Positions 5,270 to 47,072 of a stretch of 64,000 nucleotides of DNA are shown here, piece after piece. The position numbers and the translations under genes are program-made. Source of the stretch: an uncultured Lachnospiraceae bacterium (GTDB taxonomy: Bacteria; Bacillota; Clostridia; Lachnospirales; Lachnospiraceae); the NCBI GenBank assembly GCA_902779575.1, contig CACZBW010000012.1, positions 105,178 through 169,177 of the forward strand, written 5' to 3'. The notes beneath the pieces are model-generated. The model saw nothing but the letters and a program-made list of their open reading frames with translations, ran no database searches and had not been told where the DNA came from. Within the stretch, counting starts at the first letter, position 1; each line of letters starts with the position of its first letter.

Positions 5270-7357
5270 TTATTTCCATTTGAAGTACAGTTCGTACCCG
5301 ATCTCCCGGAGCTGTCCCGGAATCTCCCTGACCTGCCGGCGAATGAAAGACCGGGTCGTCTCATTCAGCTGCTCGTATGGAACCAGTTCCGGCGTCTGCT
5401 TCAGGTCCGGATTCGCCGTTCCCACCGTCCATCCCGCAGTCATGCGGTCCCGCATCCATCTTTCATGCTCAAGGGAAGCAAATTCTTCCAGCACCGGTCC
5501 GAAGAGTTCCGTTATGGCGTCCGGAGCGGCCGGAAGAAGAAGCGCTGTCTCTGTTTCTCCGGCCGGTTCATCCGGCCTGTCGGACGAGACGCTTCTCCCC
5601 GCGATCGGCCTGAGTCCGACCTGCATATCATAGTCCTGCAGTTTTTCCCCGAGAAAGCGGATATGCGAGCGGTAGCTTTCTTTATAGCATTCCTCCAGAT
5701 CCTTCCATGGAGCGAGCTCATCCGGGCAGTGGGCAGTTTCGAAGGTCATACTGATCTCTCCGGCGCTCATCGAGGCTGCGGACAGCGCTTCCGGAAACGC
5801 AGCAGTCCCTGCCTCTTTATCAAATGGCGGCTGACCGTCCGTCTCCCCGGCGCCGGGATGTTTTTTGAGAAGATTCATATGCGCGATTCTCGCGTACTGC
5901 TCCACGGCATCCCCCATCACCTGCTCGAAAGCCAGCTTGTTCCGGAAGTCCTTCACATCCAGGTGGAGATCCAGCTGCTCATCCATGGGGAGGCAGGAGG
6001 GCGTGAAACGGTTGACGTCGGAAAGCCTGCACATGGAGAGGATGAACTCAAGGGACCTTGCCCCGTGCCGGTACTCAGACACTCTGAGCAGGGCGGAAAG
6101 AAGGCCTCTGGAGATATTGATCAGCCCGCCGTCCGAATTGTAGATGCCGGGGATCCTGCGGATAATCTGCTCTCTGAGCAGGACAGCCCTCCGGATAATA
6201 TGGCTGCGGTCCGTGAAGCTGACCGGATTCAGGCCCTTGATATTCAGGATTCCTTTCAGCCTGCTGACGAAATCCGGACCCTTGACCCTGCGGAAGGCGT
6301 CGGACTGGGCAGTTGAATCCCCCTGGTCCGCGGGAAGAAACTGGCGGAAGGATTCCGCAGTTCCGCCCGCGAAGACAAATACGGCGTCGTCGATGGATCT
6401 TGTCCTGCCGCTCAGGGTATACTCCCCGTCCTGCATTGGGGCCAGGAAATATTTCAGCCAGCCCCTCGCCTCTGAATCCAGTTCCGAATCAAATTCATCA
6501 AAGAAAATGAGAGGAATGCTGCCTTTCGGACATTTCAGGGCTTCCTCCAGCGCTTCAAAAAGGGCGTCGGGACCCTTATACTGGGAAACATTCAGGGATG
6601 TGACAGCAAATCTTCCCGAGGTGGAGGCAATCTGCTTCACTCCGAAGGATTTCCCCGCACCCGGAGGGCCGAAAACCGCTATGGAAAGCGGCTGCAGCAT
6701 ATCGCCCGGCTGCATGCTGTCGCACTGGAGAATGTAATCATCCAGCAGGGCGCGGATTGTCTGGTAGTTCTCGATCTCATCCCGGTCCACGGTCGCAAGG
6801 GCATTATAATGGCAGACCGGCACATGCCGGTACAGTTCCTCCGGACCCGCGAAAACGATCTGTTCCGCCGCGGCAAGGTATCCTCCCGGCTGGGACATGC
6901 AGTATTCATCAAGAATGCAGAAAGGATTCTTCCCGGATACCAGCGCCTTCATGCTCCGCTCAGGTACGCGGATCCTGCATACGGTTCCTTCCTTCTCCTT
7001 CTTCATAAGGGAGCGGAGGACCGGATAGAGCGGGGCGTCCTCGCTGAGGGAAGAACCTTCCGCGCACAGGGGGGTAAAGAGAAGGATCCATCTGCCGTCC
7101 TCGCGGATCAGCGCTCCTTCCTCGTTCAGCAGAATCACCAGGTCCCTGCGGACCTTCAATGCGTGCAGGGAATCATTCACCGCAAGCTGCAGGAGAAATT
7201 CATCCACAGTGCGCTCATAGGATAAATGCCTGCTGATGGGGTAATCCAGATTTCTGAGATGCGCCATCTGCATCATCGGTATTTTATTGGTCTCAAAAGC
7301 CTCGGCAAAAGAACTGCCGGGCACATATTCTTTATAATCGTTTCTGTTTTTCAACAT
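5270..7357 (-). CDS. AAA+ ATPase with C-terminal RyR (ryanodine-receptor-type) domain
   Basis: The biological role of this 695-residue protein is unknown. Residues 1 to about 220 have no recognised domain. An AAA+ module follows, with Walker A GPPGAGKS at 230-237, Walker B IFFDEFD near 284-290, a strand VFVFAGGT where sensor 1 is expected, and a possible arginine finger in DFVSRLKG near 362-369. At the C-terminus, about 627-692 matches the RyR fold (FASLEHERWMRDRMTAGW, then VPYEQL and the R..V..IPGQLREIGYEL block), and 549-583 looks like a second, partial RyR unit. RyR domains in bacteria occur in signalling and conflict-type proteins as putative ligand-binding modules; here they could sense a ligand and gate the ATPase. 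No transmembrane segment is visible. The gene has its own promoter and no partner effector beside it. Confidence 0.85.
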   Translation of the reverse strand: MLKNRNDYKEYVPGSSFAEAFETNKIPMMQMAHLRNLDYPISRHLSYERTVDEFLLQLAVNDSLHALKVRRDLVILLNEEGALIREDGRWILLFTPLCAEGSSLSEDAPLYPVLRSLMKKEKEGTVCRIRVPERSMKALVSGKNPFCILDEYCMSQPGGYLAAAEQIVFAGPEELYRHVPVCHYNALATVDRDEIENYQTIRALLDDYILQCDSMQPGDMLQPLSIAVFGPPGAGKSFGVKQIASTSGRFAVTSLNVSQYKGPDALFEALEEALKCPKGSIPLIFFDEFDSELDSEARGWLKYFLAPMQDGEYTLSGRTRSIDDAVFVFAGGTAESFRQFLPADQGDSTAQSDAFRRVKGPDFVSRLKGILNIKGLNPVSFTDRSHIIRRAVLLREQIIRRIPGIYNSDGGLINISRGLLSALLRVSEYRHGARSLEFILSMCRLSDVNRFTPSCLPMDEQLDLHLDVKDFRNKLAFEQVMGDAVEQYARIAHMNLLKKHPGAGETDGQPPFDKEAGTAAFPEALSAASMSAGEISMTFETAHCPDELAPWKDLEECYKESYRSHIRFLGEKLQDYDMQVGLRPIAGRSVSSDRPDEPAGETETALLLPAAPDAITELFGPVLEEFASLEHERWMRDRMTAGWTVGTANPDLKQTPELVPYEQLNETTRSFIRRQVREIPGQLREIGYELYFKWK

Positions 7358-17084: not shown

Positions 17085-19673
17085 TCAGCTGCTTTTTGGA
17101 CTTTTCCTGCTGTAGAAGGTATCCTCCAGAGGCAGGCTGGTCCGGAATTTTCCGTCCAGGGCGTAGTATGCTCCGGCGATGGCGGGCGCTGCCGGGATGG
17201 AGGTAATTTCCCCGATCCCCTTGGCCCCGCAGGCGACGTCGAGGTATTCCCCCTTCTTCGCCGTGATGGCATGGATCCGCGGGATCTGGGGCGCCCGCAG
17301 AAGACCGAGAGTGCCGAGTTTCGCCTTCGGCACACAGTCCTCCAGGTCAAAATGTTCCGTGAGCGCATATCCCATGGACATCAGGGCGCCGCCCTCAATC
17401 TGGCCCTCGAGGGCAATGGGATTGACCACCTGCCCGGCATCGTAGGCCGCATAGAGGTCCGTCAGCTTCCCGCTGTCGTCCAGGATCGCCAGGTTGGTCG
17501 CGTAGGCGTAGGCGATATGGCTCTTCGGGTTAGGCTTATCCGTTCCGAGCGGGTCGGTCGGCTCAAAATATTCATAGAAGAATTCCCGGCCGTTCAGGGC
17601 TTCCAGGTCCCGTCCGGCTTCTTCAAGGGCTTCTTTCAGTTTCGCCGCGGCTCCCCTGACTGCTTCCCCGGTCAGGAGGGTCTGCCTGGAACCGGAAGTG
17701 GTCCCGGAGTCGGGCGCATTTTCCGTATTCGACTTTCCGTTCCGGATCAGCTTCAGGGGCAGTCCGGTCGCCTGCGCGGCAATCTGGCAGAATACGGTAC
17801 TGCATCCCTGACCGATATCGGAAGCGGCCGAATAGATGACACAGCTGCCGTTCTCAATTACAATCCGGGCCCGCCCCTTGTCCGGCAGGCCGACGCCCAC
17901 GCCGGAATTCTTCATGGCACAGGCGATCCCCGCGTGCCCGGGATGCTGCTCATACGCTTCCTTCACGGCCAGCAGGGTCTCTTTCAGGGCTGTAGACCTG
18001 TCAGCGATCTGGCCGTTCGGGAGGACTCTGCCCGGCTCGATGGCGTTGCGCCAGCGGATCTCCCAGGGCGAAAGCGAAGCCTTTTCCGCCAGGGCGTTGA
18101 TCACCATCTCCAGGGCAAATTCACTCTGGCTGACGCCGAAGCCCCGGAAAGCGCCCGCAGGAGGATTGTTGGTATAATACCCGTAACCGCGGATATCGGT
18201 GTTCTGATAACAGTAGGGCCCCACCGCATGGGTACAGGCCCGCTCCAGGACAGGTCCGCAGAGGGAAGCATAGGCGCCCGTGTCAAAGCGGATCTCACAG
18301 TCCAGGCCCGTAAAGATGCCGTTCTCATCGCAGCCCAGGGTAAAATCAGCCTTCATGGCGTGGCGTTTGGGATGGAAACAGATGGACTCATGCCGGGACA
18401 GCTTCACTTTCACCGGCCGTTTCACATGCCAGGCCGCCAGGGCGGCCAGGTGCTGGACACTGACGTCCTCCTTGCCGCCGAAACCTCCTCCTACCAGCTG
18501 GTTCTCCACTACGATCTTCTCCGGATCCCAGCCGAACATGATCGCGATCTCCCGCCTGGTATCGTAAGCCCCCTGATCGGAGGAGAGAACCTTGATCCCT
18601 TCTCTGTAGGGGAAGGCGACAGCGCATTCCGGCTCCAGGAAAGCGTGCTCGGTAAAGGGGGTTTCGAAATGCGCGCTGACTTTGTATTTCGAACGGGCGA
18701 GCGCAGCTTCCGCGTCCCCCCTCTTCACATGCCTCTGCTGACAGAGATTGCCGCCCGAATGGACCCGGGGCGCATCCTCTGCCATGGCCTCGTCGATGTT
18801 CCGGACCGGCCTGAGCACCTCATATTCTACCCTGACCAGCTTTTTCGCTTCTTCCAGAATTTCCCGCTTTTCAGCGACCAGCAGGCAGATGGCGTCCCCC
18901 ATCATCCGGGTCGTCCCTCCCTCCGGGATCATGACGTCCCAGTCCTGCTGTATATGGCCGACTTTATTGTTGGGAACGTCGCGGGCTGTCAGGACGGCAA
19001 GGACACCCGGCAGCTTCTCCGCTTCCGAACAGTCGAGCTTTTTCACGACCGCTCTGGGATAAGCCGAACGCAGGCAGGATCCGTAAACCATGCCCTCCAT
19101 CTCGACATCGTCCGGATAGACGCCGCTTCCGAGAACCTTGTCCCTCACGTCCACCCGGAAGACATTTCTTCCGACCGCCCCTTCTCCTTCGGAAACAGGA
19201 GCCTGGATTTCCTCCTCGCCGCGCAGAATCCGGGCGGCGCAGAGGATCGCCTCAATGATCTTCTTGTATCCGGTGCAGCGGCACAGGTTCGGCCTGATTG
19301 CCGCCTTGATTTCATCCTCAGACGGATCGGAATTGCTGTCTAGAAGGGCTTTCGCGCTCATCACCATGCCGGGCGTGCAGAAGCCGCACTGAACCGCGCC
19401 TCTGCTGCCGAACGCATAGACATAGATCTCTTTTTCCCGGTCTGCAAGCCCTTCCACAGTCAGGATCTGTTTTCCTTCCGCCCGGGAAGTTTTCAGCACG
19501 CAGGCGCGGACCGGCTTTCCGTCGGCAAGGATCGTGCAGGCGCCGCACGCGCCTTCGGAACACCCGTCCTTGACCGAATGAAGATGCAGGTCATCACGCA
19601 AAAACCGCAGGAGGCTCTTGTCCTCCTGCGTCTGAACCAGTTTGCCGTTAACGGTCAGGCTATATGTACACAT
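17085..19673 (-). CDS. Fused xanthine-dehydrogenase-family molybdoenzyme (possibly selenium-dependent type)
   Basis: A [2Fe-2S] subunit and a molybdopterin subunit are fused in 862 residues. The N-terminal ferredoxin domain has Cys38, Cys43, Cys46 and Cys58 (DGCSEGACGACTI); the second cluster domain has QCGFCTPG and LCRCTGY. The molybdopterin part has GGGFGGKEDVSVQHLAALAA, GAFRGFGVSQSEFALE, DIGQGCSTVF and the catalytic glutamate in GAKGIGEITS. This fused, FAD-less layout of about 850 residues is that of the selenium-dependent xanthine dehydrogenase family of Clostridia, but the labile selenium is not encoded and cannot be read here. Start 19673 was chosen because the ferredoxin fold begins there; upstream in-frame residues are not family-like. 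No FAD subunit or cofactor-maturation gene is adjacent. Confidence 0.85.
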   Translation of the reverse strand: MCTYSLTVNGKLVQTQEDKSLLRFLRDDLHLHSVKDGCSEGACGACTILADGKPVRACVLKTSRAEGKQILTVEGLADREKEIYVYAFGSRGAVQCGFCTPGMVMSAKALLDSNSDPSEDEIKAAIRPNLCRCTGYKKIIEAILCAARILRGEEEIQAPVSEGEGAVGRNVFRVDVRDKVLGSGVYPDDVEMEGMVYGSCLRSAYPRAVVKKLDCSEAEKLPGVLAVLTARDVPNNKVGHIQQDWDVMIPEGGTTRMMGDAICLLVAEKREILEEAKKLVRVEYEVLRPVRNIDEAMAEDAPRVHSGGNLCQQRHVKRGDAEAALARSKYKVSAHFETPFTEHAFLEPECAVAFPYREGIKVLSSDQGAYDTRREIAIMFGWDPEKIVVENQLVGGGFGGKEDVSVQHLAALAAWHVKRPVKVKLSRHESICFHPKRHAMKADFTLGCDENGIFTGLDCEIRFDTGAYASLCGPVLERACTHAVGPYCYQNTDIRGYGYYTNNPPAGAFRGFGVSQSEFALEMVINALAEKASLSPWEIRWRNAIEPGRVLPNGQIADRSTALKETLLAVKEAYEQHPGHAGIACAMKNSGVGVGLPDKGRARIVIENGSCVIYSAASDIGQGCSTVFCQIAAQATGLPLKLIRNGKSNTENAPDSGTTSGSRQTLLTGEAVRGAAAKLKEALEEAGRDLEALNGREFFYEYFEPTDPLGTDKPNPKSHIAYAYATNLAILDDSGKLTDLYAAYDAGQVVNPIALEGQIEGGALMSMGYALTEHFDLEDCVPKAKLGTLGLLRAPQIPRIHAITAKKGEYLDVACGAKGIGEITSIPAAPAIAGAYYALDGKFRTSLPLEDTFYSRKSPKSS

Positions 19674-19771
19674 TCCTGTCACCCGCCTTTTCTCCGGTCC
19701 GGAGGAAGACCCGGGCAGGCAGAGCCTTCTCCCGGCCGCGGCCGGGAGAAACGCTCTCATGATTTCCCGTC

Positions 19772-22240
19772 TTATTCCTCCGTCTTTTCTGCAGTTCCGC
19801 TGATGGAAGCAGCGGCCTTTCCCGCTGTCTCCGCTATCTTTGCCGCAGCCTTCTCGGCCGTTTTCGCGGCGCTCCTGGCAGCTGTCTTTGCCTTGTTTCC
19901 GGCCGATTTTGCCGTCTTTGCCGCACTCTCGGCGGCGGCTCTCACGGCAGTCTTCTTCGCCGCGCTTTTCTTTTCTCCTTCAGCTGCTTTTTTCGCCGTG
20001 CTTTTCTTTGCCGCTGTCTTCACGGGAGCTTTTTCAGCCTCCTCCAGCCTGCTGCAGGAGAAAACGCTGATCCCCATGGGCGGCACCAGAACGCGGATGG
20101 AGTTCGGAAGCTCGTCGCATTCATCGGCTTTAGAGCTCTTCACTCTCGGATTCACATTCCCTTCTCCGCCAAAGGCTGCGGCGTCGGAATTGAAAATCTC
20201 CTTATATTTTCCGCGGAAAGGAACGCCGATCTTGTGATCCGCGTAGGCAAGCGCCGAGAAATTCACCACAACAAGCAGCATCTGTTCTTCGATCGAGCTC
20301 TTCCGCAGGAATACCAGCATATTTTCGTTGGCGGAAATATTATTGATCCATTCAAAACCGTCCGGGTCATAATCCAGGGCGTAGAGGGCCGGATTCTCCC
20401 GGTAGAACTTCATCAGAGCGGCCATATAATTCCGGAACTGAACGTTCTCTTCCTCCTCCAGGCAGCTCCAGTCCACGCCGCTCACCGGACTCATGCCGCT
20501 CTTCTGGGCAATGTCGCAGCCCATGGAAAGAAGCTTCTTGCCCGGGTGCAGGAAGAGGTATCCGTATGCCGCCCTGAGATTGGCCAGTTTATTCTTTTTC
20601 TTTCCCGGGACCTTGGCATACATGGAGCCGAAAGCTTCCGTCATGTCCTGCCAGGGCAGGGCGAGCATGAAATTCTCGGAATAGTTGTAGACCATGCTGA
20701 AAATCAGCTCCGCATGGTGGGACCCGCGGAAAATGGGATCGAGCTGCATATATTCGATCAGGGCGTTTTTGAAGCCTTTGTTCCATTTGAAATCAAAGCC
20801 GAGCCCGTCGTCCTCCACGCTTCCTGTCACCATGGGCCACTCGGAGGTGTCCTCCGCGATCAGGACCGCTCCCGGGACCTCTTTGTGGAAAACGGAATTC
20901 AGGTGCTTGAAGAATTCCACTGCGTCCAGATTTTCATTTCCTCCGTAGAGGTTGGAGACCCATTCTCCCGGTCTCTTCCCGTAATCCAGATAAAGAACGC
21001 GGGAGATATCGTCAAAGCGCAGGCCGTCCGCGTGGAACTCCTTCGCCCAGTAAAGGGCGTTCGCAATCAGGAAATTCTTGACCTCGGCTCTTGCGTAGTT
21101 GTAGCACAGACCGCCGTCCGCCGCGAACAGCGCCCTGCGCGGATCGCTGTGTTCATAGAGACAGGTCCCGTCAAAACCGATCAGCGCGTGGGTATCCCGC
21201 GGGAAATGGCTGGGAACCCAGTCCAGCAGTACGCCGATCTTCTGCTGGTGCAGATAATCGATAAAATAGCGGAAATCATCCGGCGTCCCGTAGCGGGAAG
21301 TCGGCGCGTAATACCCCGTAACGGCAAAGCCCATGGAAGCGTCGTCCATATGCTCCATGACCGGGAAAAGCTCCACATGGGTATAGCCCATCTTCTTTAC
21401 ATAATCCGCCAGTTCCTTCGCGATCTCCCTGTAATTGCGGAAACTGTCCGGATCCTCCGCCTCCAGCCAGGTCGCCGGATGCAGCTGGTAGACGGATACG
21501 GGATCCGTATGAATCCGCTCCCCGGCGCGCATCTCCATCCAGGCCTGGTCATGCCAGACATAGGCGGAATCACCGCAGACAATCGAAGCGGTATCCGGAC
21601 GCCGCTCCGCTTCGAAGGCATAGGGATCCGACTTCAGGAAGGTAAGGCTGTTCTTCGCCTTAATCTCATACTTATACAGACTGCCCGGCTTCATCCCGGG
21701 AAGGAAGAGCTCGAAAATCCCGCTCTCGGGAAGTCTTCTCATGGGGAGCCTGCGCCCGTCCCAGAGATTGAAATCTCCTACCAGGCTGACGCGCATCGCG
21801 TTCGGCGCCCAGACGGCAAAATAGACGCCTTCCGTCCCGTCCACGGTCATGGGATGCGCTCCCAGATAACGGTAAATGTCATAGCAGATGCCTGCCGCGA
21901 ATTTTTTCAGGACCTTCTGCGGAATCTGCGGCTCATAATTATAGGGATCCATGTAGGATTCGGCGGACCCGTTGTCAAATTCCGCCTCGATCGTATAGGC
22001 CGGAATCTTCTGTCCGGGGAGAAAAGCTGCAAAAAAGCCGTTCTCATCCACCTTCTCCATGGGATAGAGCACGTCCCCGGATCTGATATTCACACGCAGC
22101 GCGGTCGGCAGAAAGGTCTGCACAAGAATCCCGTCCTCCGTGACAGATGCTCCGAGAAAATCATGCGGATTGTCTTCTTCGGAATAAACCAGCCCCTCAA
22201 TCCGGGCCCAGTCCATGGCATTATAGAGTTTCCCGTTCAT
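19772..22240 (-). CDS. GlgB-like protein with altered active site and histone-H1-like tail
   Basis: Overall this is a 1,4-alpha-glucan branching enzyme homologue: CBM48-type N-terminal region (about residues 25-225), GH13 barrel (about 240-600), C-terminal beta domain to about 733. The nucleophile (GLRFDD, Asp410) and acid/base (LIAEDTSEW, Glu463) positions are kept. The third catalytic position is not: where E. coli GlgB has SHDEVV with Asp526, this protein has PWQDMT (529-534), giving Trp-Gln for His-Asp. The GYQ motif near E. coli Tyr300 is GFA here, and GNEFAQ is GCDIAQ. Residues about 733-822 are a Lys/Ala-rich tail (KTAAKKSTAKKAAEGEKK and similar). Branching activity is therefore doubtful; a glycogen-binding or regulatory role is possible. 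GGAGGT precedes the ATG and a consensus promoter is upstream. Confidence 0.85.
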   Translation of the reverse strand: MNGKLYNAMDWARIEGLVYSEEDNPHDFLGASVTEDGILVQTFLPTALRVNIRSGDVLYPMEKVDENGFFAAFLPGQKIPAYTIEAEFDNGSAESYMDPYNYEPQIPQKVLKKFAAGICYDIYRYLGAHPMTVDGTEGVYFAVWAPNAMRVSLVGDFNLWDGRRLPMRRLPESGIFELFLPGMKPGSLYKYEIKAKNSLTFLKSDPYAFEAERRPDTASIVCGDSAYVWHDQAWMEMRAGERIHTDPVSVYQLHPATWLEAEDPDSFRNYREIAKELADYVKKMGYTHVELFPVMEHMDDASMGFAVTGYYAPTSRYGTPDDFRYFIDYLHQQKIGVLLDWVPSHFPRDTHALIGFDGTCLYEHSDPRRALFAADGGLCYNYARAEVKNFLIANALYWAKEFHADGLRFDDISRVLYLDYGKRPGEWVSNLYGGNENLDAVEFFKHLNSVFHKEVPGAVLIAEDTSEWPMVTGSVEDDGLGFDFKWNKGFKNALIEYMQLDPIFRGSHHAELIFSMVYNYSENFMLALPWQDMTEAFGSMYAKVPGKKKNKLANLRAAYGYLFLHPGKKLLSMGCDIAQKSGMSPVSGVDWSCLEEEENVQFRNYMAALMKFYRENPALYALDYDPDGFEWINNISANENMLVFLRKSSIEEQMLLVVVNFSALAYADHKIGVPFRGKYKEIFNSDAAAFGGEGNVNPRVKSSKADECDELPNSIRVLVPPMGISVFSCSRLEEAEKAPVKTAAKKSTAKKAAEGEKKSAAKKTAVRAAAESAAKTAKSAGNKAKTAARSAAKTAEKAAAKIAETAGKAAASISGTAEKTEE

Positions 22241-22688: not shown

Positions 22689-23924
22689 TCAGTCCAGGGC
22701 GTGCAGAAACAGTCCGCTCCGGAGCTTCGGTTCAAACCAGGTGGATTTCGGCGGCATCAGAAGCCCCGCGTCCGCCACGGCGAAAAGTTCCTCAATCGAG
22801 GTGGGATACATGGCAAAGGCGGCTTTGCAGTCCTCTCCGCAGCGTTCGATCAGTTCCGCGTACCCGCGGATTCCGCCGACAAAATCAATCCGTTCATCGG
22901 TCCTTGGATCCGCAATGCCCAGGATCGGACCGAGTATCTCCCTCTGAAGAATCGATACGTCCAGTCCTTCCACAGGGTCGGAAGACCTGAGAGCCGGGCG
23001 GAAGGACATCCGGAACCAGTTTCCGGCAAGATACAGGGAGAATTCTCCTTTCGAGGCAGGCCTGAGCGGGGAAAAGCGGACATCCTTTATCTCGCATTTT
23101 TCCTCCAGCTTCTTAAGAAATGCTTCCGGGCTCAGTCCGTTCAGATCCTTTACGACCCGGTTGTAATCCATAATCATGAGCTCGTCATCCGGGAAAAGAA
23201 CCGAGAGGAAATAATTAAACGGTTCTTCTCCGCTGTATCCCGGATTCTGCTCCCTTCTTTTCAGCCCCACTTTCACGGCGCTGGCCGCCCGGTGATGGCC
23301 GTCGGCGATATAGACCTGCCCGACCGACCGGAAAGCATCCCGGATCATCTCCGCATCTTTTCCGGAAACTCTCCAGCCTCTGTGGCGCACCCCGTCGGAG
23401 GAAACAAAGTCAAAAAGAGCGGCCTGCTCCCGGATCCGGGCCGAGATCTCCCTGAGGCTGCCGCTCTGCCGGTAGGCAAGCAGAATGGGGCCGGTCTGGG
23501 CGTTTACGGTATCCACATGCCGGATCCGGTCCAGTTCCTTCTCCTCCCTCGTCAGCTCATGTCTGCGGATAACCCCGTTCAGGTAATCATCTATACTGGC
23601 ACAGCCGACGAATCCGGTCTGGCTCCTTCCCTCCATCGTCAGCTCATAAAGATAATAGGAAGCCGTCTCATCCCGGACAAATGAGCCTTCCCGGATCCGC
23701 TCCTCAAGCAGTTCCCGGGCTTTATCGTAAACCTTGGGGGCATACATGTCGCAGTCCTCCGGGAACTGGGTTTCCGGGCGGTCAATATTCAGAAAAGAGA
23801 GCGGATCCTTCGCCGCCTCCTCCCTCGCTTCTTTGCGGCTGTAAACATCATAGGGAAGCGCCGCGATCCTCTGCCACAGCCCGTCAGCGGGATGTATGGC
23901 GCAGAAGGGTCTGATCTTTGCCAT
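22689..23924 (-). CDS. DUF1015 family protein
   Basis: This 411-residue protein has no assigned biochemical function. It begins MAKIRPFCAIHPADGLWQRI, with the family's early PYDVYS motif, then RPETQFPED, and the TGPILLAYR and YIADGHHRAASA blocks. The HHR-type segment suggests a catalytic or metal site but this is not proven. The frame is open further upstream, but the ATG at 23924 has an ideal GGAGGT site. It follows serA by 73 bp, and the linkage to serC and serA is widespread in Clostridia, implying a role connected with serine or phosphoserine metabolism. A terminator closes the operon. Confidence 0.93.
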   Translation of the reverse strand: MAKIRPFCAIHPADGLWQRIAALPYDVYSRKEAREEAAKDPLSFLNIDRPETQFPEDCDMYAPKVYDKARELLEERIREGSFVRDETASYYLYELTMEGRSQTGFVGCASIDDYLNGVIRRHELTREEKELDRIRHVDTVNAQTGPILLAYRQSGSLREISARIREQAALFDFVSSDGVRHRGWRVSGKDAEMIRDAFRSVGQVYIADGHHRAASAVKVGLKRREQNPGYSGEEPFNYFLSVLFPDDELMIMDYNRVVKDLNGLSPEAFLKKLEEKCEIKDVRFSPLRPASKGEFSLYLAGNWFRMSFRPALRSSDPVEGLDVSILQREILGPILGIADPRTDERIDFVGGIRGYAELIERCGEDCKAAFAMYPTSIEELFAVADAGLLMPPKSTWFEPKLRSGLFLHALD

Positions 23925-23997
23925 CTCCAAACCTCCGTTATCCGTAAAACAGCCCGGCTCATACAGAAATATCTCTGACAGCCGGGCCATCTGGTTC

Positions 23998-25155
23998 TTA
24001 TTTTACAACTCTGACGCGGAGCACATCCGGAATTCTGCCGATCTCCGCCACCGTCTCGGGCCTGATCGTCTCGTCGAGATCAATCATCGTATAGGCGTAC
24101 TCGCCGCGGCTGGTATTGGACATGTTGGCAACATTCGTGTTGGAAAGCTTATCCATGATCTGCCGGATCATATGCTTGACATTCCTGTGGTAGATGGCAA
24201 TCCGCTGCGCGCTGCTGCATACGCCCATATTGCAGGACGGGTAATTGACGGAATTGCTGATGTTGCCGTTCTCGAGGAACTCCATCAGCTGGGTAACTGC
24301 CATGACGGCGCAGTTTTCCTCTGATTCCGCCGTGGAGGCTCCCAGGTGCGGGGTCAGGAGGACGCCGCTGTGCCCGATCGTCTTCGTGTTCGGGAAATCG
24401 CAGACATACTTGCGGATTCTGCCCTCGTCAAGAGCTGCCAGGACAGCGTCTTCATCCACCAGAAGGTCTCTTGCGTAATTCAGGATGACAGCCGTCGGCT
24501 TCATCAGGGCAATGGCGTCCTTACCGATCATACCCCTCGTGGAATCCAGCAGCGGGACATGGATCGTGATGTAATCACACTCCCTGTAGATCTCATTTAC
24601 ATCATTGATGTGCTTTACCGAACGGCTCAGATTCCATGCGGCGTTGACGGAAATGTAGGGATCATAGCCGTACACATCCATCCCGAAATGGACTGCGGCG
24701 TTCGCGACCAGGCATCCGATCGCGCCGAGACCGATGATGCCCAGCTTTTTCCCGGAAAGCTCGGTTCCGGCATACTGCTTTTTCTGCTTCTCCACATCTT
24801 TGGCAATATTCAGATCCGAAACATTCTCATTGATCCAGTTGACGCCGCCTACGATATCGCGGGCTGCCAGCAGCATACCGGCAAAAACCATCTCCTTGAC
24901 GCCGTTCGCGTTTGCTCCGGGCGTATTGAAGACTACGACGCCCCGCTCCGCGTATTTGTCCAGCGGAATATTGTTAACGCCTGCTCCGGCCCTGGCGATG
25001 GCAAGGACCGAATCGTCAAGATGCATCTCGTGCATATTCGCGCTGCGCACCAGGATCGCGTCCGCGCCCTGTATATCGTCTGTCTTTCCGTAATCTGCGT
25101 TAAAGCAGGAAAGACCCTTCTGGCTGATGGCATTCAGGCAAGCATATTTATACAT
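23998..25155 (-). CDS. serA: D-3-phosphoglycerate dehydrogenase
   Basis: It oxidises 3-phosphoglycerate to 3-phosphohydroxypyruvate, the first step of serine synthesis. The 385-residue protein has the D-isomer dehydrogenase layout: substrate domain with AGAGVNNIPLDKYAERGV, NAD-binding motif GKKLGIIGLGAIGCLVANAA, the DYITIHVPLLDSTRGMIG segment, LLTPHLGASTAESEENCA with the catalytic His, and a short C-terminal ACT-like regulatory domain from about residue 310. This is the short SerA form. It lies between serC and DUF1015 on the same strand. Confidence 0.97.
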   Translation of the reverse strand: MYKYACLNAISQKGLSCFNADYGKTDDIQGADAILVRSANMHEMHLDDSVLAIARAGAGVNNIPLDKYAERGVVVFNTPGANANGVKEMVFAGMLLAARDIVGGVNWINENVSDLNIAKDVEKQKKQYAGTELSGKKLGIIGLGAIGCLVANAAVHFGMDVYGYDPYISVNAAWNLSRSVKHINDVNEIYRECDYITIHVPLLDSTRGMIGKDAIALMKPTAVILNYARDLLVDEDAVLAALDEGRIRKYVCDFPNTKTIGHSGVLLTPHLGASTAESEENCAVMAVTQLMEFLENGNISNSVNYPSCNMGVCSSAQRIAIYHRNVKHMIRQIMDKLSNTNVANMSNTSRGEYAYTMIDLDETIRPETVAEIGRIPDVLRVRVVK

Positions 25156-25279
25156 GTTATCTCCCTCTCCTCTGTATCTGATCTGTAGTTTCCGCGCCGC
25201 AGGCTGAGGAAGCCGTAATCAGCAGACCGCTTCATATTTCAGCAGCTCCGGTACCGGAGGCAAAATGACCGGCGGATGT

Positions 25280-26362
25280 TCAGATGTTCTCCGCCTCATA
25301 CGCTTTCATGAAATCGACAAGCTTCTCCACTCCCTCGACGGGCATGGCGTTATAAATGGAAGCTCTCATGCCGCCCACGCTTCTGTGGCCTTTCAGATTA
25401 ACGAAGCCTGCTTTTTCAGCCTTCGCAATGAAAACCGCGTCCTTCTCCTTATCTCCGGTGACAAACGGGACGTTCATCAGGGATCTGTCCTCTTTGGCGA
25501 CGGTTCCCCTGAACAGTCTGGAGGAATCAAGGTAATCGTACAGAAGCGCTGCCTTCTTTTCATTGATGGCCTTCATGCCGGCCAGGCCGCCGTTCTTCTT
25601 CAGCCATTTGAATACAAGGCCGCAGATATAGATATCCCAGCAGTTCGGCGTGTTGTACAGGGAGCCCGCGTCTGCCTGGGTCTTCCACTTCATGACAGTC
25701 GGTGTGCAGTCCAGGACATCGTCCGTAATCAGATCCTCGCGTACGATATTAATGGTCATGCCGGCAGGTCCGATATTCTTCTGTACGCCGCCGTAGATCA
25801 CGCCGTATTTCTCCACCTCCATCGGTTCGGAGAGGAAGCAGGAAGAAACGTCCGCGACAAGAAGCTTTCCCTTCGTATCCGGGAGCTTCCGGAACTTTGT
25901 TCCGTAAATCGTATTATTTTCGCAGATATAGACGAAATCCGCGTCGTCGTCGACCGGAAGATCCGAGCAGTCCGGAATATAGGAGAAAGTCCTGTCTTCA
26001 GAGGACGCGAGGGCAACTGCCTCCCCGTACTTTTTCCCTTCCTGGAAGGCTCTCTTTGACCACTGTCCGGTGATGATATAGTCTGCTTTCCGGTTTTTCA
26101 TCAGATTCATGCAGACTGCCGCAAACTGGTGATGGGCGGATCCGTTCAGGAACATGACTTTATAGTTGTCAGGAATCTGCAGCAGATCCCTGAGGTCAGC
26201 CTCGGCCTCATCGAGAATGCCCTGGAACACGGACGAGCGGTGGCTCATCTCCATAACGCTCATGCCGCATCCCCTGTAATCCATCATCTCCTCCGACGCC
26301 TGTCTGAGTACCTCTTCCGGCAGCACTGCCGGCCCTGCGGAAAAATTATAAACTCTGCTCAT
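25280..26362 (-). CDS. serC: Phosphoserine aminotransferase
   Basis: This PLP enzyme converts 3-phosphohydroxypyruvate and glutamate to phosphoserine, and also acts in pyridoxal synthesis in some bacteria. The 360-residue protein starts MSRVYNFSAGPAVLPEEVLR, the family signature, and has the PLP lysine in GGVQKNIGPAGMTINIVRED. The start at 26362 has a GGGAGG site; the longer open frame upstream is not family-like. It is first in a serC-serA-DUF1015 operon. No serB is in the window. Confidence 0.97.
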   Translation of the reverse strand: MSRVYNFSAGPAVLPEEVLRQASEEMMDYRGCGMSVMEMSHRSSVFQGILDEAEADLRDLLQIPDNYKVMFLNGSAHHQFAAVCMNLMKNRKADYIITGQWSKRAFQEGKKYGEAVALASSEDRTFSYIPDCSDLPVDDDADFVYICENNTIYGTKFRKLPDTKGKLLVADVSSCFLSEPMEVEKYGVIYGGVQKNIGPAGMTINIVREDLITDDVLDCTPTVMKWKTQADAGSLYNTPNCWDIYICGLVFKWLKKNGGLAGMKAINEKKAALLYDYLDSSRLFRGTVAKEDRSLMNVPFVTGDKEKDAVFIAKAEKAGFVNLKGHRSVGGMRASIYNAMPVEGVEKLVDFMKAYEAENI

Positions 26363-26431
26363 AGAATCCTCCCTGCAACATCCGCATGTAATCCGCAAAA
26401 GTACCTTTTTGCAGAATGATTACTTCAATGC

Positions 26432-26466
26432 GTTAAAGTGTGAATTCGCCATAACGCATAAAACAT
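26432..26466. promoter_or_regulatory. Inverted repeat upstream of serC
   Basis: ATGCGTTA and TAACGCAT flank a 16-18 nt centre that contains GAATTC, about 75-105 bp before the serC start and just after the ilvB terminator. It could be an operator or a leader hairpin for the serine operon. A partial promoter, TTGCAT-17-TAATGT, overlaps this region. Confidence 0.45.
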
Positions 26467-26492
26467 TAGCACTTCTGCAGGATGAATGCAAG

Positions 26493-26524
26493 AAAAAAAT
26501 CAGGAGCCCGGAGACTCCTGATTT
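26493..26524 (-). terminator. Terminator of ilvD-ilvB
   Basis: The minus strand reads AATCAGGAG-TCTCCGGG-CTCCTGATT followed by TTTTTC. It is about 100 bp after the ilvB stop, downstream of repeat copy 4. Confidence 0.88.
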
Positions 26525-26530
26525 TAAATC

Positions 26531-26592
26531 ACCAAAAAACCTGCGTTTATATGATTTTACAAACCATATTTCCGGCGTCGCTGTCATAACCT
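26531..26592 (-). repeat. Dispersed intergenic repeat, copy 4 (opposite orientation)
   Basis: Read on the minus strand it has the head TTATGACAGCGACGCCGGAA and core ATATGGTTTGTAAAATCATA. It sits between the ilvB stop and its terminator, so in this copy the family core is in the sense strand of the mRNA. Its plus-strand end GGCGTCGCTGTCATA matches the tail of copy 6. Confidence 0.6.
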
Positions 26593-26621
26593 GATTCCAG
26601 ATCGCAGGCGCACACCGGCAA

Positions 26622-28334
26622 TCAGATTTCGTCCTTTTTCTTGGTCCTGGCAGTGGAACGCTTTCCATCCAGGTCATCCTGGTCGAAGACCTCCGAGATC
26701 GCATGTCCCGCGGGAACCATCGGGAATACCTTGTCATCCTCGTCGATGATGCAGTCGATCAGAACCGGCCCGTTCAGCTCAAGCGCCTGGCGGAAAACCG
26801 TCTCAAACTCTTCCTTCTGCGTGACACGGAAAGCCGCGCAGCCCATCGCCTCCGCCAGCTTCACATAGTCCACCTTGTCGGAGAAAATGGTATGGGAATA
26901 GCGTCCGCCGTAAAACAGTTCCTGCCACTGATGCACCATCCCCAGCACATGGTTGTCCATAACCAGCTCGATGACCGGGATCTGATAGCGGGCGGCTGTG
27001 GCCAGTTCGTTCATGTTCATGCGCAGGCAGCCGTCTCCCGCCACATTGACGACGACCTTGTCCGGACGCCCTGTCTTGACGCCGATCGCGGCACCGAGAC
27101 CGTAGCCCATGGTTCCGAGGCCTCCCGATGTGAAGAGCTGATGGGGTTCCTTGTAGCGGAAATACTGGGCAGCCCACATCTGGTGCTGTCCGACTTCCGT
27201 GACGATTCTCGCGTCCCCGTCCGTCAGGCGGTAGATTTCTTCCATGATAAAGGGACCGCTCAGCCGGCTTCTGTCATATTTGAGCGGATGATTCTCGGAA
27301 ATGCTGAGGGATTCCGCGACCCACTGGCTGTGATCATTCTGTCCGATCATCGGGGTCAGACGTTTCAATACCTCTCTGACGTCGCCGATAATGCTGAGGT
27401 CCACACGGATATTCTTATTGATCTCCGCGGGATCGATATCGATCTGCAGAATCTTCGCGCCTTTCGCAAACTGCTTCGGATTTCCGATCACGCGGTCCGA
27501 GAAACGGGCGCCGATAACAACCAGCAGGTCGCTGTGGGAAACCGTCAGATTGGAAGCCTTGGTCCCGTGCATGCCCAGCATGCCCAGGTACAGTGGATCC
27601 TTCCCGTCGAAAGCGCCTTTCCCCATGAGGGAATCGCAGACCGGTGCCTGCAGCGCATAGACAAACTCTTTCAGTTCTTTCTGCGCGTTGGAAATGACCG
27701 CGCCTCCGCCCACGAAGACAACCGGTTTTCTGGCCTCCCGGATCATCCCGGCAGCCTGCTCCAGATCTTTTGTCCGGATGGAATCCGTAAAGGGCAGAAT
27801 CGGGGCCGGCTTTTTCGGCTCATACTCTGTCTGGTCTGCGGTGACATTTTTGGTAAGGTCGATCAGGACCGGGCCCGGGCGGCCTTCCTTCGCGATCCGG
27901 AAGGCTCTGCGGACCGTATCCGCCAGCTGATGAATATCCTTGACAATGAAATTGTGCTTGGTGATGGGCATGGTGATATCGTAGATATCCACCTCCTGGA
28001 AGGAATCCCTCCCGAGAAGGGAAATGCCCACATTGCAGGTGACCGCAACGATCGGGACGGAATCCATGTAGGCCGTCGCGATACCGGTAACCAGATTCGT
28101 GGCGCCCGGTCCGGAAGTCGCGAAGCACACGCCGACTTTCCCCGTAGCCCTGGCGTAGCCGTCAGCCGCATGGGAAGCGCCCTGTTCGTGGGAGGTCAGG
28201 ATATGCCGGATCTCCTTGTGCCTGTACAGCTCATCATAAACATTCAGGATCGCTCCGCCCGGATAGCCGAAAATGGTATCCACGCCCTGCTCCTTCAGAC
28301 ATTCAATCAGAATCTGTGAACCGTTCAGTTTCAT
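26622..28334 (-). CDS. ilvB: Acetolactate synthase large subunit
   Basis: This ThDP-dependent enzyme forms acetolactate or acetohydroxybutyrate for valine, leucine and isoleucine synthesis. The 570-residue protein has the N-terminal FGYPGGAILNVYDELYRH with the preceding EQG catalytic-glutamate segment (HILTSHEQGASHAADGYAR), FAD/regulatory middle domain, and the ThDP motif GDGCLRMNMNELATAARYQI near residue 440. It follows ilvD by 18 bp. No small regulatory subunit ilvN is adjacent: the operon terminates directly after ilvB, so the partner must be encoded elsewhere or the enzyme works alone. Confidence 0.96.
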   Translation of the reverse strand: MKLNGSQILIECLKEQGVDTIFGYPGGAILNVYDELYRHKEIRHILTSHEQGASHAADGYARATGKVGVCFATSGPGATNLVTGIATAYMDSVPIVAVTCNVGISLLGRDSFQEVDIYDITMPITKHNFIVKDIHQLADTVRRAFRIAKEGRPGPVLIDLTKNVTADQTEYEPKKPAPILPFTDSIRTKDLEQAAGMIREARKPVVFVGGGAVISNAQKELKEFVYALQAPVCDSLMGKGAFDGKDPLYLGMLGMHGTKASNLTVSHSDLLVVIGARFSDRVIGNPKQFAKGAKILQIDIDPAEINKNIRVDLSIIGDVREVLKRLTPMIGQNDHSQWVAESLSISENHPLKYDRSRLSGPFIMEEIYRLTDGDARIVTEVGQHQMWAAQYFRYKEPHQLFTSGGLGTMGYGLGAAIGVKTGRPDKVVVNVAGDGCLRMNMNELATAARYQIPVIELVMDNHVLGMVHQWQELFYGGRYSHTIFSDKVDYVKLAEAMGCAAFRVTQKEEFETVFRQALELNGPVLIDCIIDEDDKVFPMVPAGHAISEVFDQDDLDGKRSTARTKKKDEI

Positions 28335-44719: not shown

Positions 44720-46996
44720 TTACTCCTGCCCGTCTTTCTCTTCTTCCTCATGCGTTTCGGAAACGGAGGGTGTGAAGACGCGGCTGACAATGGGATCTTC
44801 AGGCTTTACCGCTTCCATGGCTTCTCTCATGAAGCTTTCCTGAGCCCCGATCCGTTCTTTTCCTCTCCTGTCGATCTTCTCGTACTGATTGGTCTCCTTG
44901 AGCTCATGAGCCTTGAGCGTATCCGCCAGCTGAACGTCCAGGATATGCCTTGCCGCAGCCGCGCTGTCTTTGTCCTCCAGGGGGAACATGATCTCAACGC
45001 GCCGGTCGAGATTTCTGGGCATCCAGTCCGCGGAAGCCATGTAGAGTTCTTCGTGGCCGCCGTTTCCGAAGCAGAAGATGCGTGCATGCTCCAGGAAAGT
45101 TCCGACTACAGAGCGCACGGAGATGTTCTCCGATACGCCCGGAATCCCGACCCTGAGGCAGCAGATTCCGCGCACAATCAGCTGAATCTTAACGCCCGCC
45201 GCGGACGCCTCATAGAGCTTCGCGATCACGTCCCGGTCGCAGAGAGAATTCATCTTGGCGATGATATAAGCCTCCTCTCCCGCCTTCGCATGCTCAATCT
45301 CACGGTCAATCAGGCGGTACAGCCTGTCCCTGAGCCAGATCGGGGCAAGGGCGAGCCGGTTCCAGTGCCTGGGCTCGCTGTAGCCGGAGAGCATGTTGAA
45401 TACGGCTGTCGCATCCTCGCCGAACGCCTCATTGCAGGTCATAATGCCGCAGTCTGTATAGAGCCTCGCCGTGGAATCGTTGTAGTTGCCGGTGGCCAGA
45501 TGCACATAACGGCGGATTCCGTCTTCCTCCCTGCGAACGACAAGCGCGATCTTGCTGTGGGTCTTCAGGCCGACCAGGCCGTAAATGACATGGCAGCCGC
45601 TCTTTTCAAGCATTTCCGCCCACTGGATATTGTTCTCCTCGTCAAATCTGGCCTTCAGCTCTACCAGGGCCGTCACCTGCTTCCCGTTCTCCGCCGCCTG
45701 CGCCAGCGCAGCGACGATCGGGGAATGTCCGGAGACGCGGTAGAGGGTAATCTTGATCGCGAACACGTCCGGATCTGTCGAAGCCATCCGGATCAGATCC
45801 ACAACCGGATCGAAAGTTTCATAGGGATGATGGAGGAAAATATCTTTTTTGCGGATGGCCGCGAAGAGATCCTCATCCTCCTTCAGATTCATCAGCGCCG
45901 GTACCGGCTGGGGCGTCCAGGGTTTCTCCTTCAGATGGTCGAACCCTTTCATCCCGTAAGCCTTCATGAGGAAGGTCAGGTCCAGAGGACCCGCGATGGG
46001 GTACATTTCCTCCTGCCGGACCCCGAACTCTTTCTTCAGGATCTTGAGCAGCCTGGGATTCATGCTGTCCTCATACTCAAAGCGGATAACCTCGCCCCAC
46101 TGCCTCTTCTTGATCTTTTTCTGGATCTCTTCCAGAAGATCGTCGGAATCATCCTCGTCCAGAGTCAGGTCCGCGTTCCTAGTTACCCGGTACGGATGTG
46201 CGCAGACTACGTTGAATCCGGTAAAGAGCTTGTCCATATTGCGCTCGATCACGTCCTCCAGCAGGACGCCGGAATGTGTCCCGTCTTCCTTGTCGGGCAG
46301 TACGATGATTCTGGGCAGGACGCCCGGAACCTGGACCGTGGCAAAAACCGTACCGCCCTTGAGCGCTTTGTCCTTTGTGACTTTTTCCGCCTTGAGCTCC
46401 CCGTTCTTCTGCAGATTCTTCATGACGGTCTGGGCAACGGAGTTCTCGGCGTCGTCTTCCTTCCGGGAGATCAGGGCGCCGATATTGAGCGACTTGTTGC
46501 GGATCAGGGGAAACGGCCTCGACGCGTCCATGGCCATGGGCGTCAGTACGGGATATACATTTTCCTTGAAATAACTGTCCGCGAAAGCAGCCTGGTCCGG
46601 AGTAAGATCCTCAAAATCAGTGATGATTTCCAGCTTGTTCTGCTTCAGGGCGGGAACCAGGGAGCGGATCAGGGTGGAATACTGCCGCTCGATCAGCTCA
46701 TGGCACTTTTTCTGAACCAGTTCCAGCTGCTGATCGGCGCGGAGCCCGGCCAGATCCGGCTTTGAATATTTGGCATGGACCATGTCCTTCAGGGAAGCAA
46801 CGCGGACCATAAAAAACTCATCCAGGTTGGAGGCGGTGATGGACAGAAATTTCAGGCGCTCGAAGAGCGGATTCTTCTTGTCACGGGCCTCGTCCAGAAT
46901 CCTGTAATTGAAATCCAGCCAGCTCAGCTCCCGGTTGGTATACCAGGCCGGATTTCTGTAATCGATCGTATTCACGGAATCATTACTCTTAGCCAT
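44720..46996 (-). CDS. ppk: Polyphosphate kinase 1
   Basis: It reversibly builds long-chain polyphosphate from ATP. The 758-residue protein has the N-terminal domain start [20 protein letters not shown], the head domain, and the C-terminal catalytic domains with [35 protein letters not shown], the autophosphorylated-histidine region [13 protein letters not shown] and the second PLD-like motif. The start at 46996 matches the family; a longer open frame upstream does not. Its neighbour ppx encodes the opposing activity, giving a polyphosphate turnover module. Confidence 0.97.
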
Positions 46997-47072
46997 CTTT
47001 CCAATCCTTCCATATGACGGCAGCCCGCCGGACAGAAACACCCGGCCGCCGCAGCCGGCAATCCTTAACCTC

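Follow-up and report, generated by a model that had tools for sequence, protein, structure and literature searches.

Glycogen branching enzymes of the GH13_9 type, for which structures of GlgB from E. coli (1M7X and 8SDB) and Cyanothece (5GQU) have been solved, share their domain order and fold with the product of a gene, here referred to as glgB2, that is located in a 64,000-nucleotide stretch of DNA (the window) from an uncultured Lachnospiraceae bacterium (assembly GCA_902779575.1, contig CACZBW010000012.1, positions 105,178 to 169,177). Unlike GH13_9 GlgB, the glgB2 product (GlgB2) lacks His525 and Asp526 (residues are numbered after E. coli K-12 GlgB from NC_000913 as the reference), is eroded at the donor site and carries a Lys-rich tail. 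With a probability of about 0.6, we consider that the product of this gene is non-catalytic and serves glycogen synthesis as a glucan-binding scaffold or partner, representing a bacterial counterpart of plant ISA2; the loss of catalysis is well supported by the sequence comparison, and the scaffold role is what we infer.

GlgD, the GlgC-like subunit of ADP-glucose pyrophosphorylase in Firmicutes, belongs to the same pathway as GlgB2 and acts as the regulatory subunit of that enzyme, but its fold is unrelated and its role is allosteric. ISA2, a noncatalytic paralogue that associates with ISA1 and for which action by way of glucan-binding sites has been proposed (PMC12510319), resembles the window protein, as far as the sequence of the latter tells, in being a GH13 paralogue without a functional catalytic site that is conserved beside an active paralogue, but differs from it in belonging to a debranching family, in being eukaryotic and in forming an established complex, where any complex of GlgB2 is putative. 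In GH57, a different glycoside hydrolase (GH) family, inactive 'like' groups are included (PMC6037648), which are naturally catalysis-deficient beside alpha-glucan enzyme specificities as is probably the case here, and according to a review (PMC11046441) the branching domain is inactive in a glgA-glgB fusion of two chlamydial families. Blautia obeum and Dorea longicatena are among the species for which two or three glgB homologues are noted in a review, the passages concerned being silent on the catalytic residues (PMC10395257). A second-type branching enzyme of another gut bacterium, FdBE2 of Faecalibacterium duncaniae (21JH/21KG), turned out to be the best solved match of a separate short GlgB in our collection (L120), which we used as outgroup, and not of the GlgB2 clade. 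Among the matches listed from a partial literature with few subscription journals, none described a bacterial pseudoenzyme paralogue of GlgB resembling GlgB2.

The window protein carries the full GlgB set of domains in the order N-domain, CBM48, GH13 barrel and C-terminal beta domain, as judged by Pfam, the structure model and Foldseek, and scored above the cut-off of three NCBIfam equivalog models for GlgB. Its identity with E. coli GlgB is 40% across 724 aligned positions, and in Foldseek it matched 3k1d, which we take to be GlgB of M. tuberculosis, with a template modelling (TM) score of 0.92 (by target length) and 39% identity over 727 columns. The structure model, with a mean predicted local distance difference test (pLDDT) value of 81, backs the GlgB fold, but the pocket is poorly informed, with loops of pLDDT below 50 (residues 296-309, 535-537 and 574-576). 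After MAFFT alignment to E. coli GlgB, Asp335, His340, Arg403, the nucleophile Asp405 and the acid/base Glu458 were found to be kept as Asp340, His345, Arg408, Asp410 and Glu463, respectively, and Tyr300, His525, Asp526 and Glu527 to be changed to Phe305, Trp530, Gln531 and Asp532. An earlier note, made by eye from the sequence, had claimed the retention of Asp410 and Glu463, the replacement of Ser-His-Asp-Glu of region IV by Pro-Trp-Gln-Asp at residues 529-532 (with His525 to Trp and Asp526 to Gln), and the changes of GYQ to GFA, VHGK to TEAF and GNEFAQ to GCDIAQ; all of these agreed with the alignment, region IV being gapless both with MAFFT and with phmmer against the solved branching enzymes. 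The objection raised there, that realignment might place the His-Asp of region IV elsewhere in the protein, does not apply, the HD dipeptide being present only at residues 26 and 230, both distant from region IV. The catalytic set of active GlgB (Asp405, Glu458, Asp526 and His525) is incomplete, with Trp530-Gln531 where His-Asp is expected.

Chance misalignment of region IV was ruled out by the gapless alignment and the lack of any other HD nearby, and assembly or sequencing error by the nearest orthologue, 91% identical and from a separate genome (G001), which has PWAD at this position. Migration of a catalytic residue is unlikely across the genus; for the window protein alone the sequence leaves room for it. 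Since the window protein passes the three equivalog cut-offs, profile annotation would call such proteins GlgB, and the counts of branching enzymes in these bacteria may be inflated.

Relatives were searched for in 98 genomes, including 18 of the same genus besides the window's own. A GlgB2 orthologue was detected in 17 of these 18, the exception being G016 (72% complete), for which the best match was its GlgB1, the canonical-type branching enzyme. His525 and Asp526 are both absent from all 18 GlgB2 sequences of the genus (own genome included), and the residues at Asp405, Glu458 and Asp526 are, in this order, DEQ, DEA, DEG (five sequences), DEE, EQE (seven), AEE (two) or DKE; each of the three carboxylates is replaced in at least one orthologue, with Asp405 changed to Ala or Glu in 9/18, Glu458 to Gln or Lys in 8/18 and Asp526 to other residues in 18/18. 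Conservation across orthologues had been proposed for checking in the earlier note, and the loss of His525 and Asp526 is fixed in the genus sequences compared. Because retaining GH13 chemistry requires the nucleophile, the acid/base and the transition-state Asp, each of which is lost somewhere in the genus, catalytic death of the genus GlgB2 is very likely. A residual or changed catalysis, such as slow branching or transfer with the shifted carboxylate Asp411 beside Asp410, would agree with the retention of Asp410 and Glu463 in the window protein, with the fixation of Asp411 in the genus and with the passing of the NCBIfam cut-offs, but is improbable in view of the replacements of acid/base, nucleophile and Asp526 just described.

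Judged from codon comparison, the genus GlgB2 is under purifying selection. Among 17 GlgB2 sequences, the ratio of nonsynonymous to synonymous substitutions (dN/dS, by the NG86 method) was 0.043-0.158 in the six pairs whose dS did not exceed 1.3, and reached 0.195 in the next six pairs; that of GlgB1 in the genus was 0.025-0.110 in the twelve pairs of lowest dS. Silent differences average 0.70 across all GlgB2 pairs, most of these pairs being near saturation. No internal stop was found in the 18 sequences, of which two are truncated by contig ends. With catalytic residues gone under purifying selection, the window protein and its orthologues are candidate pseudoenzymes. That glgB2 is instead a decaying, functionless pseudogene might be proposed from its faster evolution than GlgB1 in the genus and from the canonical copy in the genome, but these dN/dS values, the intact frames, the open frames of 727-958 codons in all 27 degenerate GlgB2 from other genera (these sequences were read as open frames), the neighbourhood kept in the loci read and the domain-specific conservation make it very improbable.

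The pattern of loss was analyzed for the genus using 120 columns with a conservation of 97% or higher among 159 active sequences. Among these, 18 of the 19 CBM48 columns and 5 of the 5 C-domain columns were kept in every genus sequence, while 19 of the 96 barrel columns were lost in every sequence (Fisher p = 0.013). Of the barrel columns lying within six residues from eight catalytic or substrate residues, 19 of 36 had been lost by half or more of the genus, compared with 11 of 65 in the remaining barrel (Fisher p = 0.00025). For the surroundings of the catalytic residues versus the other barrel, column entropy was 0.43 versus 1.12 bits in active GlgB2, and 0.90 versus 0.75 bits in the genus (p = 0.06); by this measure the constraint pattern of active GlgB2 is inverted in the genus. 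For the 27 degenerate GlgB2 outside the genus, we used 131 columns that are at least 97% conserved in 240 active GlgB (20 in CBM48, 5 in the C domain and 101 in the barrel, five in the N-domain not being tabulated separately), for which the mean retention was 0.94 for CBM48, 0.99 for the C domain and 0.63 for the barrel (barrel versus the other 30 columns, Mann-Whitney p = 2e-10, the columns being mutually non-independent). The least-kept columns include Trp298, Ala406, Ser460, Thr461, Val529 and His530, all adjoining the active site, and low retention was also observed for the classic positions His340 (0.22), Asp405 (0.22), Asp526 (0.33), Glu458 (0.41) and Arg403 (0.52).

Trp159 and Trp628 are the representative residues of the glucan sites IV and VI of E. 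coli GlgB as given in Table 1 of PMC10254366, and the same paper states that E. coli GlgB loses activity on mutation at sites I, IV, VI and VII. The residue at Trp159 is Trp in all 17 covering genus sequences and Trp (25) or Tyr (2) in the 27 others, and that at Trp628 is Trp in 18/18 of the genus and Trp (26) or Phe (1) in the others. The earlier note had left two readings, a pseudo-enzyme that binds glycogen and a new transferase specificity. The former is supported by catalytic losses that differ by species, by purifying selection, by a canonical GlgB elsewhere in the genome and by the kept aromatics of sites IV and VI, from which binding is predicted; the latter is disfavoured, as by the above entropy values the catalytic surroundings in the genus vary no less than the remaining barrel, and as nucleophile, acid/base and stabiliser are each replaced in some orthologue.

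Another proposal, that the former active site now serves in binding or sensing (or, less likely, in a new transferase or hydrolase reaction) by means of newly fixed residues, appears rather unlikely to us. Gln252 (Glu247 in E. coli), Asp375 (Trp370), Asp411 (Ala406), Asp464 (Glu459) and Ser466 (Thr461) are fixed in the covering genus sequences, and position 414 is Arg or Lys throughout the genus, but such residues are few among the 29 conserved columns that are replaced in at least half of the genus, most of which vary; the variability around the active site also speaks against it, and no single replacement pattern is common to the other lineages. As a separate observation, Gln252, Asp375, Asp411 and Asp464 (encoded within 20849-21487 of the window, minus strand) are new and fixed even though the adjoining catalytic residues vary.

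To which extent the loss has recurred was examined with trees. A maximum likelihood (ML) tree of 79 sequences, made after removal of nine catalytic columns, separated the GlgB2 clade from GlgB1 of the same family (Shimodaira-Hasegawa-like approximate likelihood ratio test [SH-aLRT] 98), with the window genus as a single clade inside GlgB2 (SH-aLRT 100). For a wider draw from 200 genomes of the family, the degenerate GlgB2 L060 was used as the query; 171 genomes gave a match at 1e-100, and the given loci plus 80 further listed matches were taken, leaving 287 sequences after removal of identical rows, a sample that is biased to full-length GlgB2 and is not a census. With degenerate defined as any change at Asp405, Glu458, His525 or Asp526, a set of 45 sequences was degenerate. 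The window genus accounts for 18 of these and 27 other genera for one each, and all 45 were located inside one 150-tip GlgB2 clade of a FastTree tree made with the active-site stretches removed. The frequency was 45/149 for scored GlgB2 (L057, with region IV masked, was unscored) against 0/137 for other GlgB, and the absence of any departure at these four positions in the latter rules out that the departure from the catalytic motif arose by chance.

The FastTree tree contained 13 maximal all-degenerate clades. In a 90-row mixture-model tree without active-site columns (27 degenerate non-genus, 6 genus, 52 active GlgB2 and 5 outgroup rows), 12 changes of state were required, 8 of them forced by starred (strong) branches; this tree was built rapidly and includes several long rows, so that its stars are weaker and losses are possibly lumped or split, and the count gives no direction. 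On these trees, repeated inactivation of GlgB2 among related bacteria seems likely, and by residue comparison the degenerate state is genus-wide and recurs across the family, which is beyond what the single protein could show.

As proposed in the earlier note, a second, canonical glgB was sought in the window's own genome, and was found. Two genes of this genome match Alpha-amylase_C in the profile search, the second being GlgB1 (L084) on contig C13, of which the motifs GLRVDAV, IAEEST and SHDE are intact. GlgB1 is intact in all 14 same-genus sequences read (own genome included), and a separate match of the canonical GlgB type was present in 27/27 of the non-genus genomes with degenerate GlgB2, its motifs being read intact in 25; the other two are G237, without a region II pattern match, and G239, of which the locus was left out. 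The own genome (G000) also carries two glgC/glgD-type pairs (C4 58986-61207 and C6 204181-206534), two glgA-type genes over the cut-off (C12 70791-72215 and C17 61625-63052) and four matches to the GlgD profile, two of which are above the curated cut-off.

The reading that we prefer for these data, the non-catalytic glucan-binding scaffold or partner, may be set out as follows. GlgB2 would have lost retaining GH13 catalysis, and would have retained the branching-enzyme fold, CBM48, the C-terminal surfaces and the positive Lys-rich tail. The window protein would bind glycogen through sites IV and VI, and might act as a non-catalytic partner in one of two ways, by keeping GlgB1 and/or GlgA attached to the growing glucan as a subunit or scaffold, or by residing on the granule and determining its structure, a role that would be similar to that of ISA2 alongside ISA1. 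The tail, which is common to active GlgB2, probably tethers the protein to something acidic. A more tentative proposal, which we hold at somewhat less than even odds, is that the non-catalytic GlgB2 of Lachnospiraceae, derived from repeated (probably at least eight) inactivations, are organisers of the glycogen granule, that is, glucan-binding scaffolds of which the charged tail recruits the synthesis enzymes; if true, this would be a bacterial parallel to ISA2, and the non-catalytic role of GlgB2 would predate the catalytic loss. That catalysis has been lost recurrently in one paralogue only, and that the glucan-binding domains of this paralogue have persisted, suggests a task in glycogen storage other than an enzymatic one, and the natural series of active and inactive orthologues provides direct test material for a structural role of branching enzymes.

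Several observations weigh against this reading. Folding, and not glucan binding, could be the reason why CBM48 and the C domain are retained, and many structural residues are kept as well or better (51/131 columns at 0.92 or above). Trp586 of site I is kept in 18/18 of the genus, but its retention among the other 27 is only 0.37. At site XII (Phe294) the genus has Asp or Glu, where the 19 active GlgB2 compared have Phe, Leu or Tyr and the 14 GlgB1 have Phe or Tyr; most other surface-site residues of E. coli have no counterpart here, and are mostly absent also from GlgB1 and active GlgB2. Loss among the 27 is uneven, with Tyr300 (0.74), Asp335 (0.70) and His525 (0.56) often retained, and one of them, L058, keeps all three carboxylates. 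Amino-acid divergence of GlgB2 exceeds that of GlgB1, mostly about twofold, in all pairs but G004-G006 among the 12 genomes with both. The degenerate forms come from genomes that are often fragmented or incomplete, and 80/80 relatives from the named genome collection (the best 80 among the matches listed), GlgB2 included, keep all four residues, the closest being 59% identical, and genomes very near the window's possibly being left out of this set. Finally, no glycogen link was found among the conserved neighbours of glgB2 in the 40 loci compared. The features of the gene and its upstream neighbourhood are listed in Table 1.

Table 1. Location of glgB2, its domains and key codons, and the conserved upstream genes in the window
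Feature	Position	Strand	Basis
glgB2, putative pseudo-branching-enzyme gene, 822 aa	19772..22240	-	Open reading frame (ORF) and translation; Pfam GlgB_N, CBM_48, Alpha-amylase, Alpha-amylase_C; three NCBIfam GlgB models
GlgB N-terminal domain, residues 11-100	21941..22210	-	Pfam PF22019
CBM48 domain, residues 126-208; Trp160 = E. coli Trp159 (glucan site IV), kept	21617..21865	-	Pfam PF02922; column comparison; site table PMC10254366
(beta/alpha)8 barrel with degenerate active site, residues ~213-620	20381..21604	-	Alignment to E. coli GlgB; structure model
Asp410 codon (equivalent of nucleophile Asp405)	21011..21013	-	E. coli GlgB alignment
Glu463 codon (equivalent of acid/base Glu458)	20852..20854	-	E. 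coli GlgB alignment
Region IV Pro-Trp-Gln-Asp (529-532), replacing Ser-His-Asp-Glu	20645..20656	-	MAFFT and phmmer alignments
C-terminal beta domain, residues 631-729; Trp631 = E. coli Trp628 (glucan site VI), kept	20054..20350	-	Pfam PF02806; column comparison
Lys/Ala-rich tail, residues 732-822	19775..20047	-	Composition; low-confidence helix in model
DUF1015 gene, directly upstream of glgB2	22689..23990	-	Pfam PF06245; neighbour family F4
Three upstream genes, conserved glgB2 neighbourhood	23998..28334	-	Neighbour families F1, F5, F3

The tail of the window protein (91 residues) contains 21% Lys and 35% Ala with a net charge of +10, and was modelled as a helix with low confidence. A Lys-rich tail of at least 25 residues was present in 16/17 GlgB2 of the genus, 20/27 other degenerate GlgB2, 76/104 active GlgB2 and 16/137 other GlgB, some rows being shortened by contig ends. 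The three genes at the distal end of Table 1 resemble, by our naming from the translations, serA, serC and ilvB, and from these names the neighbourhood presumably is biosynthetic. In the 40 loci (12 of the genus), several of which are shortened, the DUF1015 gene recurred in 18, the serA-like gene in 26, the serC-like gene in 18 and the ilvB-like gene in 21. Both the tail, typical of the GlgB2 clade, and this conserved neighbourhood without glycogen genes might be taken to indicate a function unrelated to glucan, in which the tail binds nucleic acid, polyphosphate or membrane and the GlgB body is a stable carrier; such a function is unlikely, however, as the same type of tail in active GlgB2 leaves the catalytic loss unexplained and the aromatics of glucan sites IV and VI persist even in those members that are most eroded.

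Sharing of the neighbourhood indicates that the degenerate L049, L055, L058, L060 and L061 are positional orthologues. It is also shared by L053, which is from another family and outside the GlgB2 clade, and the locus may therefore be the older glgB site. On the 3' side of glgB2, a MscS-type gene was found in 25/28 non-genus loci (for instance L075 10647-11519; one member was Pfam-tested) and in 0/12 genus loci. At the C-terminus of GlgB2 tails, after a fast-evolving Lys-rich linker, a peptide like (S/T)LKEELEEKV was recognized in 7/16 genus, 2/20 other degenerate and 9/76 active sequences (L017, L018, L021, L024, L026, L027, L031, L032, L043, L045 and others), where shuffles predict none, the pattern having been drawn by eye from the same tails that were counted; the window protein and its nearest orthologue L016 are without it.

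Elsewhere in the window, all on the minus strand, 17085-19760 just downstream of glgB2 codes for a single-chain molybdenum hydroxylase with fused 2Fe-2S and molybdopterin-binding domains, and 44720-47041, about 22 kb from glgB2, for a polyphosphate kinase (Pfam), which may be of interest given the Lys-rich tail. A protein of 695 aa encoded at 5270-7357 has a RyR domain near its C-terminus and no further Pfam match at 1e-5, and the 1753-aa product of 58654-63915 carries DUF7601 and BspA-type leucine-rich repeats.

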